A stretch of 64,000 bases of DNA, from NCBI GenBank assembly GCA_009869945.1, contig WIXG01000005.1:496001-560000 (forward strand). Reading direction: 5' to 3'. Made by a program: the position numbers and the translations under genes. This DNA is from Mesaphorura yosii (taxonomy: Eukaryota > Arthropoda > Collembola > Poduromorpha > Tullbergiidae). The notes under the pieces are model-generated. The model worked only from the letters and a program-made list of their open reading frames with translations. It did not search any database and was not told the origin of the DNA. Positions 14,139-34,300 of the stretch are shown here, one piece after another (the first letter of the stretch is position 1; each line of letters opens with the position of its first letter).

Positions 14139-17100
14139 ATGAACTCAAAAATGCGACGTTTTTTGTGCGCATATTTTCTATTGTGCCAACTTCTCCCGTC
14201 TGAAAGCCGGACTTCGAAGATTACCTTCCTAAATGGTGTGTACAACAACATTTTCGTGGGACTGGACGAAAATCTTGACGTAGCGTCATGCAAAGAAATC
14301 ATCATGCAGCTCCAGGTTAGAATGATACTGAAATGCATGCAAGGTGCAATGTACAGAGAGAATGCGGCTGAATGACGTGCCAATCATTGACTGTTGACTG
14401 GACTGTTGGCTAGACCATCTTCGACTCGTCTTCGGCGTACCTCGAGACCAGGGTCAATGGAGCCACATTTGGCAGCATTACAGTCGTCATCCCGTGGAAA
14501 TGGCAAACCCAACTGGCTAATTGTGAACTCACGGATTCGAACGTGGCTGATTCTGCGTATGACGTGTATGAAGAAGCAGGTAATGCTAATGCTAAATGCT
14601 CTTGTGTGCAAATTACTAGCACTATCACGGGACTTATTTACTATCCTGCTAAGATTTTAAGGTAACGGCAAGCCACCCGTTTGCCAGAAGCACTCCGTGG
14701 ACGAAGCAGGTCGGAGGATGCGGAGAGAGCGCAGAAGCCGTGTTTATTCCGCCCGACTTCTTGCAGAACACGGCAGACTTTGACACTGCGACGAAAGGAA
14801 GGCTCTTGTTGCACGAATGGATGAAACTCCGATACGGAGTGTTTGAGGAGCACGGCTACTACGATGACTCCGTCTACTCGCCTTGTTATACGAAGAAAAA
14901 AATGCTCTTTTATTCGAGCTGCACCAGCAACAATGGAGAAATTTTACCAATTTCCAACAAGTAGGAATCTACAGTAAAATGAAACTTTTATGCTATTCTT
15001 TCATTGTTCTGATTTGCCAAGTGTCGGAGACGAAAACGAAGACATTTCACCTCAAGAATGCAAACGACTCGTAGAAGAAAGTACGATTAATTTGAGATCC
15101 CAGCTGAGTACGAGGGATGTGTCCATCATGTATAATCCGTTCTTGAATAATGTAAGACTCGATTGCAAACGAGGACCACATCGCCTTCAGAACTCATTTG
15201 TCGATATCAGCCAAATTGATAATCTCTGCTGCTCTCTATTTTAAGGGGGATCTCTTGTGTGCCAGCTCTACGCATAACGGCATTACTCCAACAAAGCAAA
15301 ACATTCTTTGCGAAAGAAAAAGCGTGTCAGATGTGATGACTTCGCATTCGGATTTCGGTGGGATGCCATCAACGAATGTCGAACCTGGCCAACTGGATTC
15401 ATTGGTGCCCAAAGCGTCCCGAGCTGTGAATCTTCGATTTGTGATGCAAAAGAACACTTTGAGTCCTGCCTACTTCATCGTGATTGAAGATTCGCTGGAG
15501 AGCCGGAAATTTGTAAGCAATTCCTTGACAATGCACGAATGCACGTTCATAAGAACGAATCAGTCATTTGTCATTTTTTTACAGAACCGACTGAGGCATG
15601 TAAATCAGGCAATGGCCGAATTTTTACGATTAGCTTCAGATGGAAGTTTGGTTCGAGTAATAGAATATTCATCGCTGGCCATACTCGTTGACAATGGACT
15701 GGACGATGTCCAAAGGGTTGCGATAATGAACACGCTGAAGGACAGGCTTGAAGGTAATGCTCAGGATGTCGAGAATTTCCTTTATGCCGATGCTGTTCGC
15801 GCGCTGAGGGATGTGTTTGCGTCCGCTATAAGCCAGATTAATGTGAGTTACGTTTTTAACTTACATTCGTGCATACCTGCATTCGACGTTGACTAAAGCC
15901 CTCATGCATTTGTACAGGCAGAAAACATGAGAAAATGGGAACTTGTGCTGATTGTCAGCAGCCCTCCCACAGCCACTGCAGTGGCCGACGCCCTGCAAGT
16001 GTTGCGACCCACCAATATTCCCGTGTCTATTTTAACGTTTAGTGACTCCAGGGAGTGGCTTGCATTCAACACGATTCACAACACACAGAAAATTATTCAC
16101 TTGCCCCATTGCTACTCGCTACAGGAAGCAATATGCCACGGTCGGACAAGTGCTCTTATCACAGACCATTTACTGGAGCTTGTGAACCTCCTGAAACCTA
16201 GAACAGAGCAACAGCGGTTTTTTCACAAGGTAATTCTATTCTTCCATCTGTTACTGTATACTGTAATTTATTCACTTCTCCGTTTGAGCATTTCTTGTCT
16301 TATGCCTTCTCAAGGTTATTGACGCTTCCGCGAATGGGACCTTTGGAGGCAACTTCGAGATTCCCAGTCTGGTCCAAGGCTGGCAAAACTTCCACTTGTT
16401 TATCCCTGTTTATGACAAGTTTACTGAGGTGCACATTTCTAAGGAAGGAAATCCTCAATTTTGCGACATGTCGGAGCTCCTGGAGTATGAAGGTGTGTTG
16501 ACTCTCAATTGCCCCGACACCAGCTATTCGGTAAACCATTGCTTCTCCTGTCGATTCTCGCTGTACTCTTGTTCTGTTCGTAAATTCATGTATGTGAAAT
16601 ACGGATGTGTAGGCAGGAAACTGGATTGTTTCGATAACCGGAAGCGACATAGCCATGAGGCGGACGCATGTGATCCGAGGTTACGTGGAGACTTCAGGCA
16701 CGCCTCGCGATTTGAAGATACTCACTTCGTACGGGTTCAAATCCGAAAAGGAAATCCTTCCCATAGTGAACCATCGCTCTCCAATTCATGCAGCGGTGAG
16801 CAGCAATGAAATGATTCCAGCCAACACTAATCTGGTAATTTCTCATTTACTCGTTTCTTATTTTTTGTGTCCACACATTTTCAGATTACAAACGCGAATG
16901 ATCAACCCATTGTAAATGCTGATGTGGAACTGAAGGTAGTGTACCAGCTCAGTGATAACACAATTTACGTTGGAAACTCTGTCCAACTGCTTGACGATGG
17001 CGAAGATCCCGACACAACGAAGGACGATGGCGTGTACTCTGGGTTTCTCACAACGTTCAATTCCAATCCGTCATTCCACTCTGGCTACATCCACGTGTCC

Positions 17101-19242
17101 ACGTCGGGCAACTCCAAAAGCGTTCAGGGTTACACGAACGAGGCTGCGCTGTTGGATCCGGTCGCAAACTCAAAGTGCTGCGGATCCTCAGTATCCTTTT
17201 TGGATTCGCAAGCCTCTCCCGTTGAGTATGCAACTTACTTGCGCGTCATTCCATCGTTTCGCACTGGAGAGCCGTTCGGTCCTGGCGAAGACATAATTCC
17301 ACCCTCACGCATTCAGTCCAGAATCAAAGTGATTGCTGAGGATCGGGAGTACATTACTCTGGAATTCCGTGCTCCGGGTTCTGAACACAAGTTCGGAGTA
17401 GTAGACCGGTATAGAACGTGCTGCACAGAGTCGGAGGAGGCCAATTTGGATGATACAATGTGTGCCGACATCAGTACGTCCAGATGCAGCCCCGTCCCGT
17501 ACAACGACATGCAGGAGTGTGTCATTTCCCTGGTCGCCATGTACGACGCATTCTATTCTGGTCAGAAGCCCGAGTTGCCCGAGGACGAGACAAGCGTGAC
17601 GCTTTACTGCGGACTGCTGGGAATTGACTCTGCGGGTAATGCAGGTCCGCTTTCTTCGTTCCTGTACGAAATGGTTCTGGAATTCGAAGTTCTTGACGAG
17701 ATTAAAGCAGCCAGCAATGAATGCAAAACAATCAGAGACGGCTGCCTTCCAGAATGGGTGTTCTGGGTTATGATTGGTTGCATTGCTCTGCTGCTTGTTG
17801 TGTTGCTTGTTGTTGTGATCTGCTGGTGCTGGTCAACAATGTCAACAAAGAAGCGAGAGGCAAACGCAGCGGCTGACGACAAGAAAAGGAAAGACACTGA
17901 GAAGCAAGAATACATCAGCAAACCAGTGACTCCAGCAGTGGCGCCGTCAACCGCGGAGCCTGTAAGCGAGCCAGCAACAAACTTTCCTCCGCGCTCCATT
18001 CCGATTCAAAATGCGTTTATCAACGAGGCTTACATCCAAGAAACGAACGGAACACTACGGTTGATCGCCAGCAATGGGCAATTTCTGGAAAGTAATCACA
18101 GCACTTTGACTCGAGAACGTGATCATCGACGTCCTGTGTCAAATGAATCAGTAGGTGTGGAGCCTGAGACATCGAGCAGATTCGACAATAGAACATACGT
18201 GCCACAGTCACAGCCAAGCAATGTCGAGGAGCGAATCAGTCCGGAAAGAGAAGACATGCCAATATTTTTTACGAACTCCTCTGCCAGTCCAGTGAGTCCA
18301 GTACACTTCAATTCCCCAGCGAAACAGAGACCGCAATTGCAACAGCATGAGAACGTCTACTCCCGAGCAAACTCTGGTCTCCTGCCTCCAAGGTATTCTC
18401 ACAATCTGAGCGATCGAGTTGATCGAAACCGTGTTCCGATAGAGCCAATTCCGAAGAGTCGTCAGCCAAGAGAAAAGAATACGTACATAAATCCAAGACT
18501 TTCTCCTACGCAAGGAAATATGAGTCCAATTTATGCGTCGGTGTCGAGAACTGGGCCAAATCCCAATACGACCATGAGACCACAATCACTTCAAGCACAG
18601 CGCAGTCCTGCAAAGGCAACTCCGTACCATGTTTCCAACACCAATGGCGTCCGCCGGTCCGAACAATTTTCACCGAGCCAGACGCCAGAGGGATTTGAGA
18701 GAATTCCTGAGTCAGAATCAGCACGAACACGTCCCCCACTCCGAAATGCGAAGTCCGAGCCTAGTTCGACGCAGCAGCTGCCACCAAGCAAGATTATTCC
18801 TCTGCCGCCTGTTCGACTGGACCACTTTCCATCATCAGAAAGTGAGACTTACAGCGACATGAGCCACATTGTCCCATTTAGCAAACAGTCAAGCAAAACA
18901 CCGTCGGCAACTGCCAAGGCCCCACCGTCGTCGCAGACATTTCCACGCAATTACTCGGGCAGAAACATTTCTCCGATAAAAGAACAGCCTCCGCCGATAC
19001 CCAAAACACCTCCAAATCAAAACAGGTTCGGCCCTCGACGAGGAGTGCGGGGTTCGGCAAACAGACCGCAATTCCTCCCACCTCCTCCTCCACGAGGGCA
19101 AAACCAGTCCCTCGATAACAATGGGGCAGGAGCAGGCTACAGAGTCAACAGTGCGGAAGAGTACTACGATGACGACTCGGACGAGTGGGGAAATTATGAC
19201 GAAGAGATAACACTGCCGAATACTGGCCAGTCCTTCGCGTAG
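14139..19242 (+). CDS. CLCA-family protein with degenerate protease and VWA motifs and a long cytoplasmic tail
   Basis: Ten exons: 14139-14315, 14414-14579, 14654-14960, 15022-15151, 15246-15512, 15585-15842, 15918-16229, 16315-16530, 16613-16834, 16885-19242; 1470 residues, about 500 longer than vertebrate CLCAs. A signal peptide comes first. The CLCA N-terminal domain follows (TIFDSSSAYL, then VFIPPDFL) and holds HEWMKLRYGVFEE at residues 168-180. Here the zinc motif HExxH reads HExxK (Lys172). The VWA region gives EDSLE at 341-345 where CLCAs have DxSxS. A beta-sandwich region and AGNWIVSITG follow, then a fibronectin-like part. One transmembrane segment lies at about 976-1001 (WVMIGCIALLLVVLLVVV), then about 469 cytoplasmic residues rich in Pro, Ser and Arg with PPPPP runs and an acidic end (YYDDDSDEWGNYDEE). 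CLCAs are secreted regulators of calcium-activated chloride channels that self-cleave through the protease domain. That activity is predicted to be lost here. Confidence 0.9.
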
Positions 19243-28393: not shown

Positions 28394-31300
28394 TCACAGT
28401 TGGAGTGGAATTTCCGTTTTTATATGCTGTAATAATTTCTGTCCGTTGTCATTGTTCGAATTCTTTGAACTGGTGCTGCTGCTACTGCTGCTTCCACTCC
28501 GCCTGCTTGAGCTAGAATTTGAACCTGAGGAACCCGAATGATGATTATTATTTGTCAACTGGTTAACGCTGAGAGGATTGTTTATGTCATGTGGGTTTGC
28601 CCCGACTGGATTGCGATGCGGAAGAGGCGCTTTCAAACCCAAGCCGAAAGCAAAGCCGCCATTTGAGCCGAAGAATTGTCCAAGCTGGTGCAAAGGATTG
28701 TGGTGGTTGTTGTGATTTGCATTGTAGCTTAGCTTTTGATACATTGATTGGTTGAAGGACAACAACGACGGCGAAATCGAAGCAGAGGGCGAAGCGTTGA
28801 AGATGCTATTATTATTCAGGTGACTGTTGGTAGAGGCAGAATTCATGATAGAAGAGCTGGCAGTCGAACTGACAGAAGAAATAGGATGGCGGTCATCCAG
28901 AGGAGTCATTGGAGACTGAAGACTAGGCAGGCTAACGGCGGGACTCGTCAGACTCGCTGGAGATGGAAGAATGCCCGAAGGACACGGCGATGTCATGGCA
29001 GGAGACGGAAGCGACATCCCAGGTGAGGTTAACGACATGCCAGGTGAAGCCAACGACATACCTGCGAAATCATTAGCAAAATTAAGTTAAATGGTCATGA
29101 AACGAGCAGGATTCATATGGCTTGACATCAGCGTACCTGGAGAAGTCAGACTAAAGTTTGGGCTTGACATGCCGAGCTCTAAAATGAACATGAAACATAT
29201 AATTATTAAAAACTAGAAAGATACTTTACATGTAATATTATATGGAATAAGAAAATCGTCTTTCTCGTGTTAAATCAGAAGCCTAATGCCGTATTTGAAT
29301 TTACACGAGCGATGACTGTTCACTATTCTATTTACTGAATCAATTTCATTGCAATTGCAGATGCTTGGTGCTTGTCGTAGAACAGTTCAGAACTCCAGCA
29401 GAAGACCTCAGTGGATCATAATCAATAAAAAAAAGTCGAAGTTAAACACGCTCAATCCCTGCTAACAGCACGAAATAAACGTGATGCTGGTGTGCTGGCC
29501 AAACAAAACCACGAAGTATTGTGTGAGGGATCACAACACGAAACGTCGCCAGTGTTTTGGATTATTTCACCGTAATGAAATATTCAGCCATTGGACTTTG
29601 GTAGCTCATAGAAGGAGGATTCATGTGAGTAATTTATGCTCTGTTATGTAATGTAAGCGCTTTTAACTGTCTTCCTGGCTAACATGTCAATACTTACTTG
29701 TGCTACATGTATAACATAATTTCTCAGTTGTTATCTTCTAACTTTAAACAAAAGCTTTCATGAATACTACGCATTACACATTTCTGTAAGGGCTTTATAA
29801 AGTTATAAGCAGACCTTTTGGAAAGTAAAGAATAAAATAAGAAATTGAAAGTTTTTTACCTGAAGATTTACCACAATCAAGATCTGAATCTAGCCCGTTT
29901 TTTGAATCAGGAGTCAAGGCTTCTCCCGTGCTTCCAGCTGAACCCAAATTATCCGGACTTCCACTGCTTCCTCCACCATTTTCTCCTCGCTCTCCTTCCA
30001 TGTACCGAATGCACTTCTTCTTGCGTCTGCAAAATACAAATCACATTAGCGAATACGCCATAAACCTCAACATGCATCTACATTTCCAATTGAATCTTTG
30101 AATCAGTATCCATGCTAAGAAGCAAGAACTAAACAAAGCAGAACCCAGACAGTAAAGAGATAGAATTTCTTAAATTAACTCCAGATTCAGTAATCGCTCT
30201 GCAAAAAAAACGATACAAAAACTATGACCTTAATTAAATCGCATGCGACTTGATTTGATTATCAGGTCTAAATACCTCCTTCAGATTTAAATTCAAGCCC
30301 AAGAATTACATTTTGACTGCTCAAACACAATTACGCTGCCCGTTTTCTTATATCACAGTGAATTACAAGTTGGAATGCCCCAGGATCGGAAAATCGGAAT
30401 ATGATTATGAACAAGAACAAAACAATAACAACCTGACTGGTGGGTAAAAACAAAGGTTCAACAAAGAAAGAGGCTTAGAGAGAAAGGAAACTGACTAAAG
30501 GTTGACATAAGTGGGTTCGGGAAGTGGGGAAGGTACAGGTAATTGGGCAATGTGGCCCATGGAGGACGAGGTTGGTGGGTGGTGGTGGTGATGCATGGAG
30601 GACAAGGAGCCTAGGATCCCTAGCAGGTTTTGTGCTTGGTTCTGTTGGTGAATGAGGTGGGCCGAAGAGGTGATTGTTGAGGTGGGTGGGCCACTAAGCG
30701 AACTGGAGGAAATCATGGCCAGTTTGTGACCACCGCTACTCGAAATCATATTCGCCGGTGATGATGACTGTGCGAGATTGTTATGAGCGCCAACGATGAG
30801 ATTTGTGGGTCCGCTGCTTCCTCCACTCAAGTAGCTCACTGAACTCCCGAGCGAACTCAGTGACGTTGAGTGCACTTGATCAGGACTGATGCGAGAGAGG
30901 CAACAAATCACAATTCATACAAAATAAGAAACAGTTAATCTCTTCAAGTATGCACTTCATCGTCATTTTGCCATCGCATGCCGTTATTATTTCACATTTC
31001 GGACTCTAGTTTGCATTTTTTGCATTGGATTCGAAGACACGGACAAAGATTCGAAATGAACATAAAATTACTACATAATAATTTAGTGCAGCTAAAATAA
31101 ATGCTAACCGATGCCTGAAATCATGCAGATACAAAGAATCATGCTCGTGATTGACATTTACTACAGCTGGCGCTATAAAACTATTCTAGCGAACTAGGCA
31201 ATAAATTTCTACGTCCTAAATTTCAGAAAATGTGTCATGAAGAAAACAAAAATGGAAAACCGCGGACTGCTGCGGACGCGGAGCTGCGCACAGGGTTAAG

Positions 31301-34300
31301 GAACGAATTCCAAAGAAAGGCATAAATTGGATTCGGGAAATAGCCGTACATCGGCCATAATCTATTGCGCAATCAGCAATCTATTGATAAACTGTTTCTG
31401 TATTCTGTACTGAGTGTGTTCGTTGTCTCTCTCTCCGTCCTCACAGTGAACTTTTAACTCATGTAAAATGTGGGAAGACACATTTTCTGAAATCTCATCA
31501 TTCGTCTTTCACCGTCATCACGGTAAAAGAATAAAATCATATCGCACTGATAACATGGTCATGGCTTACGTATTCGATAATACAAATAAGGTAGCATACA
31601 AATTTAAAGTACAAACTTATAGTAATTTAAAGCTGGAAGCCAGCATTGGACAATGCAAAGGTAGCAGTCAAATACAAAATCGAACGAAAAATACATGGAA
31701 TTATTTTGTACGTGTCTTCTCACAATGTGGTTTAGATGGAAAAGAGAAAATTACGCAATTACGTTAAGCAGCGCTTGAAAATGTTAGATTGAAAGTTAGT
31801 AGCACACCGTGACCAGTAACGTAGAAGAAAAGTATTTACGCAGATTGGACTCACCTGCAAGGTTTGCACCATTGACTTTGTTGATCCAGTCCGTAGCGGG
31901 CCCGACACTTCTTCATGCTATTGCCTGCAAAGTCACGAGAAGCAATTTTAGCGCCCACCTCAACAAAAACCGGGCTATTCCTTCGAGCAGCGGTCAAGAC
32001 GCACTACAAAAGCCAACCCATCGGTCTAATTTTGATCGAATTCAAGTCTCGGCAGTTATTTATTTACCTCCATCAAATTTTTCTTGTTTTTTCTTCCGCT
32101 TCTTTTCGTGGTGAGTTCTACACTGTGCAGAAGACCAATTGGGATATAACTCCATATGCCGTTGTCTTTCTCTACGAGCTAACTCGTAGTATTTCGCTTG
32201 TTCTTCCCGGCCTAGTGCATGCCACTAAGATGGGGTTCAATAAAATAAAATAAACAGTCGAATTCATTCAATCATCGAGTCGCACGGAAAAGGAAAAGTT
32301 AGAAAAAGTACGAAGAGAGCGATCATGATCATTTCTCGTAACACTTTGCACCTTCTTTTTCGACTCCATCCGAGAGAGAGCAAAAAAGAAAGAATCATTT
32401 CAACCAAACATGAACCAAAATCAGAATGAAACTACAGAAGGAGCATTTGTGCATTGAAGCTTCATGTTTTCAACTTCTAGAACGTTCTCAAAATGGTCTA
32501 ATTTGGGCAAGAATGAACAAGCGAAATGATTCTAACGCAAATTGATTGCCGCTGAATTGGACTCTTTAAACCGATGGGTTGGTCACTTTGAGTGGCTATT
32601 CAGTGTCACGCATCAAAACGGTCATGCAGTTTTGACAAATTACACGAACATGAACAACGAGATTGTAAACAGAAATTCGAATGCACAATACCTCCATCGG
32701 AAGTTTTTTCTTTCTTTCTTTTCTTCTTCTGCTGGCAAACAAAGGCATTAAAATTGCAAACATCAGATTTTGTGTCTTCATTTAACCAGACGCAAAACTA
32801 GTTTGGAGAAACAAAACTTGCTCGGAACAGAATTTCAATCTCATTATTTTCAATTATTAGAATTCAATGTCAACATGGACTCACGAACTTCAAAATTCAG
32901 TGAACACATCAAACGTGGGGAAACTAGAAGAGAGATTTGTGACGGTGAACCAGCAAGAAAAAGTTTGATGTATGGTTTCTTACAAGCCAAGCCAGCTTGT
33001 GAAGTATGGCTTGGTATCAGGTACTTCGATCATTAATTAATGCACAGATTTTGTTCATATTTTTACATATTTACATGGAATTGTTTTACCAGGTTTTTGG
33101 GTTAGCTGCTAATCCACTGAAAACAGGAAACTGCTGTTGGAAAATTTGTAATCGTAAACCTGAGTTTTGTAATATGCGTCAGCTTCTTAATGCAGCAAAA
33201 TTTCATTCAGCTTACATTCTTGGATCAAGAGATAACAACACCTTGATTTGTCTGAATGATGGATGTACAATTCAACATGGTCGGACTTGTGACATACCAT
33301 ATTCATCTAGGTTTCATGTTAAGGCGGTAGACTTTAAAAAAATCGAAATTGCTGACTCGATTGTTGGTGTCGGTCAACATAACGATGAGCAAGATTATCC
33401 TGAGTCTGATTCAAATTAGTTATAAATTTCGCCTTGAAGCTGTGTTCCCATTACAAGTTTTGTTTCTCATTACTAGTTCTGTTCTTCATTACATACATTG
33501 AATAATTAAAACGTACTTTGGCACCGTAGCCGTAATTATCTCTAGCCGACCAGCCGGGATGCAACTGTTGATGGAGCTGTCTTTCCTGTCGTGCTTTGTC
33601 GTAATACTTGGCCTGCTCGTCTCGACTCAGTGAGTGCCACTACAGCCAGACAGAGAGGGACAGTTATTTAACCGGCCAACAACAATGCGGTCTGGCTCGT
33701 CGTGTTCGTCATGTGTCAAGAATCAGGGCTGGAAGTGCTACACTCAATGTTATGCACGGAAATAAAACTGGTCAGGATGCGTTTACAGTTACAGCTACAA
33801 TTTAATTCAATTACCAGTGGAGCACGAAACTAAAAGTCATGGATTGGCGTGGGTCAACGCAAAACGGAAAACGAAAGAGCACAATTAATTCGTGCGATTG
33901 TTGAGTTCCTTACTTTCCTATTGCTATTACGGGGATTTTGTGAGATGGACGAACGACAAATGGCACATTCGAGAAAAACAAAGGTGCAAAATGTTGAATG
34001 AATCATAATTCAGGAAACAAAAAGCAACGGAAAGATAAATGCGTTCTTTATAAGTACAATTTGAGAGAGAAGAGGAGAAAGGTCAATCAAAGAACTCACC
34101 CGACGACCGAGGATCTGATTAATAGCAGCACTCTCCTTGAGCGTACATTCGGCGACGACTTTGGCCCGCATCTCTTTCATGTACAGCTATAACAGCATAC
34201 AAGATATAAAGCCTGTACATGTACCTGTTCTACAAATATAAACTTACCATGAAAGCGTTAAGAGGTTTCTTGATGTGCGGCTTCTTCTTATCATCTGCGC

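Follow-up and report, generated by a model that had tools for sequence, protein, structure and literature searches.

The TCF/pangolin gene of the springtail Mesaphorura yosii encodes the second half of its HMG box and the adjoining basic tail twice, in two intact versions that diverged long ago, and these versions are probably employed as alternatives, which would give two TCF proteins. One version is distributed over exon A and micro-exon A', and the other is encoded by the single exon B. Intron sequences around these units could pair in two helices, P1 and P2, and it is possible, though far from assured, that the predicted helices decide between A+A' and B. Exon pairs of this kind are already known, and any novelty would lie in the crossing intron helices. 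Coordinates refer to the window, i.e., the whole stretch of 64,000 nt that was analyzed (positions 496,001-560,000 of contig WIXG01000005.1, assembly GCA_009869945.1).

By its sequence features, the gene, which lies on the minus strand, can be assigned to TCF/pangolin, and it is the sole locus of that kind found in a search of the 93-Mb genome. It encodes a TCF-type HMG box (..ILGRRWH) whose best match in the PDB is LEF1 (2lef, E 3.7e-43), followed by capicua (3.5e-12). A basic tail follows HMG helix 3 in both forms (KKKRKKEK in A', KKRKKKQEK in B), and a motif search located the C-clamp (CRARF/Y ... RKKCIRY) as CRARYG at 31907-31890 and RKKKCIRY at 30025-30002. When the A-form protein was used as query against the 93-Mb genome, seven matches were obtained, four of which are exons of the TCF/pangolin locus, while the remaining three show weak similarity, with 22.9-26.1 bits at 27-35% identity, and no second TCF locus was found. 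Paralogues or assembly duplicates were therefore rejected as the origin of A or B, as the query found only the TCF locus and the three weak matches. One scan for relatives of the A form in viral contigs confirmed none. The β-catenin-binding domain (Pfam CTNNB1_binding) gave no match at the TCF locus, where short exons may escape detection, and the lone match elsewhere in the genome is on a different contig and below the cut-off (E 0.078). On the same strand and 3' of the C-clamp, an open frame of 230 codons (28394-29086, minus strand) without Pfam match at E 0.01 may belong to the TCF gene as its C-terminal portion. Another open frame of the window, 803 codons on the plus strand (16831-19242), likewise has no Pfam match at E 0.01.

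All exons of the gene described here are on the minus strand. The HMG box starts in exon H1 (34248..34294), and the first half common to both forms is encoded by exon H2 (34100..34186, 87 nt), which ends with ILGRR in phase 0. In one form, the second half is provided by exon A (33517..33639, 123 nt; WHSLSRDEQ...NYGYGAK) and the basic tail by micro-exon A' (32692..32731, 40 nt), and in the other form exon B (32068..32224, 157 nt; WHALGREEQ...KKQEKFDG) provides both. Both A+A' and B start with WH in phase 0 and enter, in phase 1, the exon with the first half of the C-clamp (31855..31924, 70 nt), and the second half of the C-clamp (30002..30025) lies immediately after an AG acceptor. All six exons checked are preceded by AG and followed by GT, and the neighboring homologous exons thus fit each other in phase and splice sites, as expected of a mutually exclusive pair. 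When scored alone, each half exceeds the Pfam HMG_box cut-off of 25.4 bits (B 27.7, A 27.0), and therefore neither is a chance open frame. When re-derived from the sequence, the coordinates, lengths, phases and translations that a first-pass annotation had given for H2, A, A' and B proved correct, and its claim of two paralogous continuations after H2, A+A' versus B, was borne out.

After H2, the joins A-A'-C, B-C, A-B-C and A'-C stay open, whereas A-C, A-A'-B-C, A'-B-C and skipping of all alternative exons reach stops. The first-pass annotation had argued in the same way that A'-B and A-C stop and that A-B stays open; the open join H2-A'-C was absent from it. The reading frame enforces the exclusion of A and B in part: exclusion by frame is incomplete because A-B double inclusion and A' alone remain open. 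Introns too short for the inclusion of both exons were considered as a cause of exclusion and rejected, given lengths of 460 nt for H2/A (I1), 785 nt for A/A' (I2), 467 nt for A'/B (I3) and 143 nt for B/C (I4).

Between WH and WS, A and B are identical at 20 of 31 residues and agree at 60 of 93 bases. When Met and Trp are set aside, 18 identical residues remain; 13 of them are encoded by different codons, and because identical residues mostly use different codons, A and B appear to be old paralogues that have been kept for long under constraint on the protein. A recent tandem duplication was rejected on account of this codon divergence and the identity of only 60/93 bases. Of the 31 residues of LEF1 (2lef) in this stretch, 24 are conserved in A and 26 in B. 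A and B differ at a few positions of helix 3 and in the segment that leads from there to the basic tail. The two proteins would therefore be unlike in this region and would have the C-clamp and the first half of the HMG box in common; different DNA preferences had been suggested for them in the first-pass annotation.

Drosophila dTCF/pangolin, which we take to be UniProt P91943, reportedly also has A and B HMG forms. The fly A and B sequences used in the alignments are provisional, hand-entered versions. Exon A aligns best with the provisional fly A (39 of 55 residues, score 225, versus 179 with fly B), and exon B aligns best with the provisional fly B (39 of 50 residues, score 198.5, versus 159 with fly A). 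Over the 31 core positions, A is equally close to LEF1 and to the provisional fly A (24 each), and, again with the provisional fly letters, no more than 3 of these positions distinguish the two forms in both the springtail and the fly. As far as the provisional letters go, the fly gene resembles that of M. yosii in that the same HMG half is swapped and the A and B sequences correspond, and the exon pair is very probably of the same A/B type as in fly pangolin. If the provisional fly letters are right, the duplication would be older than the split of the springtail lineage from flies. In the literature searched, of which a part was opened, no text on the fly A/B HMG exons was found: neither PMC3228551 nor PMC3303723 names pangolin in its main text, and an alternative HMG exon is not mentioned in the portions available of PMC4154663, PMC4999783 and PMC3916239. 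For dipteran pangolin, the accessible part of PMC6783274 describes isoforms that differ at their 3' ends and not in the HMG halves.

Exon layouts in other TCF genes place the arrangement in context. According to the sections of PMC9303524 that were available, the second HMG half of vertebrate TCF/LEF corresponds to exon X and the NLS to exon XI, and exons X-XI are fused in hemichordates and echinoderms. A+A' therefore resembles the split X/XI layout and B the fused X-XI layout. In M. yosii both layouts are alternatives within one gene, whereas the same sections of PMC9303524 mention no second version of that half. The first-pass annotation was right about the gene, the two HMG halves and the frame logic, and had called the design of one against two exons unusual. 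This last point loses force, because split and fused layouts have both been described (PMC9303524, available sections), and by this analogy the contrast inside one gene would not be a strange architecture. The single-copy Tcf of Platynereis, Pdu-Tcf, has alternative HMG exons as well (PMC5996498, part available), but these replace the beginning of the HMG domain and not, as in M. yosii, its second half. Among arthropods, two isoforms of pangolin likewise exist in shrimp, LvPangolin1 and LvPangolin2, although the site of their difference is not stated in the available part of PMC8365339.

The candidate helix P1 is formed by an inverted repeat with its 5' arm in the A'/B intron (32566..32582, minus strand) and its 3' arm in the B/C intron (32013..32029, minus strand). 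All 17 positions pair on the transcript strand, one of them as U-G, and the helix would loop out B. In the 93-Mb genome, the 13-nt core of P1 was located twice, once at each P1 arm. A helix scan located P2 with its 5' arm in the H2/A intron (33980..33995, minus strand) and its 3' arm in the A'/B intron (32340..32355, minus strand), comprising 16 bp with two U-G pairs, and P2 would loop out A+A'. For each intron pair, the most stable helix without interruption was compared with that of 1000 dinucleotide shuffles, a statistic that was adopted after the 17-bp repeat had been seen, because whole-intron duplex energies discriminated poorly (10 of 200 shuffles for I3xI4 and 36-134/200 for the other eight pairs, I1xI3 among them with 39/200). 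I3xI4, the P1 pair flanking B, reaches -32.6 kcal/mol (0/1000 shuffles as strong), and I1xI3, the P2 pair flanking A+A', reaches -26.5 kcal/mol (5/1000). The other four pairs are unremarkable, with 585 (I1xI2), 62 (I1xI4), 586 (I2xI3) and 109 (I2xI4) of 1000 shuffles as strong. A clear excess over the shuffles is confined to the two pairs flanking the alternative units, among six pairs compared. The corresponding counts of a first small run were 0/150 for I3xI4, 5/150 for I3xB, 1/40 for I1xI3, 2/60 for I1xI4 and 18/25 for I2xI3. A 13-bp helix between exon B and the A'/B intron was discarded as weak, its level also being reached in 83 of 846 window placements.

Within the A/A' intron, a third inverted repeat of 28 nt (86%) has its 5' arm at 33454..33481 and its 3' arm at 32793..32820 on the minus strand, and in 2 of 1000 shuffles the first and second halves of the intron pair as strongly. 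In the 12 bases outside each 28-nt arm, a target-site duplication was not found. Between the arms lies a two-piece open frame in antisense orientation (32875-33419, plus strand), whose DNA is single-copy. The protein joined by hand from its two pieces gives no Pfam match; elsewhere in the genome it weakly matches 10 further places (27-34% identity, E up to 0.0077), four of which contain stops. The weak genome matches and the lack of a Pfam match suggest that a mobile element lies here, or a nested gene from a small, diverged family.

The arms follow one another in the order P2-P1-P2-P1, and because they cross, P1 and P2 are mutually exclusive as nested folds, so that a single helix would be possible per nested fold. 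With P1 formed, B would be looped out and the A' donor would come to lie near the C-clamp acceptor, giving the A+A' form. With P2 formed, A+A' would be looped out and the H2 donor would be near the B acceptor, giving the B form. Frame-breaking joins would be cleared by nonsense-mediated decay. A two-state RNA switch, with crossing helices P1 and P2 of comparable weight and with the third pairing, in the A/A' intron, bringing A' to A, is offered here as a tentative model. In partition function calculations, the mean pair probability of P1 amounts to 0.985-0.987 when three fragments that lack the H2/A intron are folded. For the complete 2333 nt, reaching from H2 to the C-clamp exon, values are 0.27 for P1 and 0.70 for P2, and when pairing is limited to 1000 nt, P2 is lost and P1 attains 0.99. 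The minimum free energy structure of the 767-nt stretch from the A' donor to the C acceptor contains P1, and as a whole it is not unusual (z -1.8).

An explanation to which we give nearly even chances is that the exon pair is real, that splicing factors and splice-site strength choose between its members, that nonsense-mediated decay destroys broken frames, and that the helices are coincidental or leftover inverted repeats. Its frame argument follows from the joins given above, since A-C, A-A'-B, A'-B and full skipping are eliminated by frame, and it also draws on genomic controls. Real genome sequence carries more inverted repeats than shuffles, and controls of this kind are less favourable, chiefly for P2. 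At placements of the same geometry, the stability of P1 is reached in 0 of 844 cases in the window and in 7 of 3720 elsewhere in the genome (at 3 of 20 loci), and that of P2 in 34/830 in the window and in 38/3280 elsewhere (at 11 of 20 loci). P2 alone is modest, because so many window and genomic placements match it. Against coincidence stand the restriction of clear signals to the two flanking intron pairs and the joint behavior of the helices, as the thresholds for P1 and P2 are met together in 0 of 3672 same-geometry placements (20 loci plus the window). A summed score as low as that of the TCF locus occurs at three placements, two of which owe it each to one very strong repeat, and the third consists of the P1 arms on the opposite strand (-31.0) beside another helix (-30.8). 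P1 is thus nearly as stable on the opposite strand, and its pairing is therefore not transcript-specific.

Considerably less probable is that P1 drives back-splicing of B to a circular RNA, or that the pairings merely shorten introns, without enforced exclusion. Circularization typically involves complementary intron sequences on both sides of an exon, and the coordinates indicate that the pairings would reduce the distance for the H2-B, A-A' and A'-C joins; on either account, however, P2 and the crossing of P1 with P2 would be superfluous. That one form is a decaying relic exon is hardly credible: B departs from the SARDNYG stretch of LEF1, which A keeps, and over 46 residues retains 33 of those of LEF1 versus 37 in A, but both exons are open, bordered by GT..AG and above the Pfam cut-off, 13 of their 18 identical non-Met/Trp residues were retained through synonymous codon change, and each resembles its provisional fly counterpart.

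The proposal that P1 and P2 select the exon has a counterpart in Dscam1, for which competing intron structures, consisting of docking site and selector, have been proposed to underlie mutually exclusive splicing, although the competing-structure model has been questioned for exons 4 and 9 (PMC8042237, part available). In both cases long-range intron pairings would compete to select one exon. In Dscam1, according to the same part of PMC8042237, many selectors compete for docking sites and covariation has been shown, whereas the predicted P1 and P2 are separate helices that would compete only through their crossing. If the helices act, a gene of central importance to development would possess a compact splicing switch that is directly testable and less elaborate than the Dscam arrays, and P1 and P2 offer exactly defined arms for mutation. 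If both forms are made, one TCF gene of M. yosii would supply two DNA-binding versions of the Wnt effector, comparable to the use of several genes by vertebrates, and, if the switch is true, folding of the pre-mRNA would control which DNA-binding form of this effector is produced.
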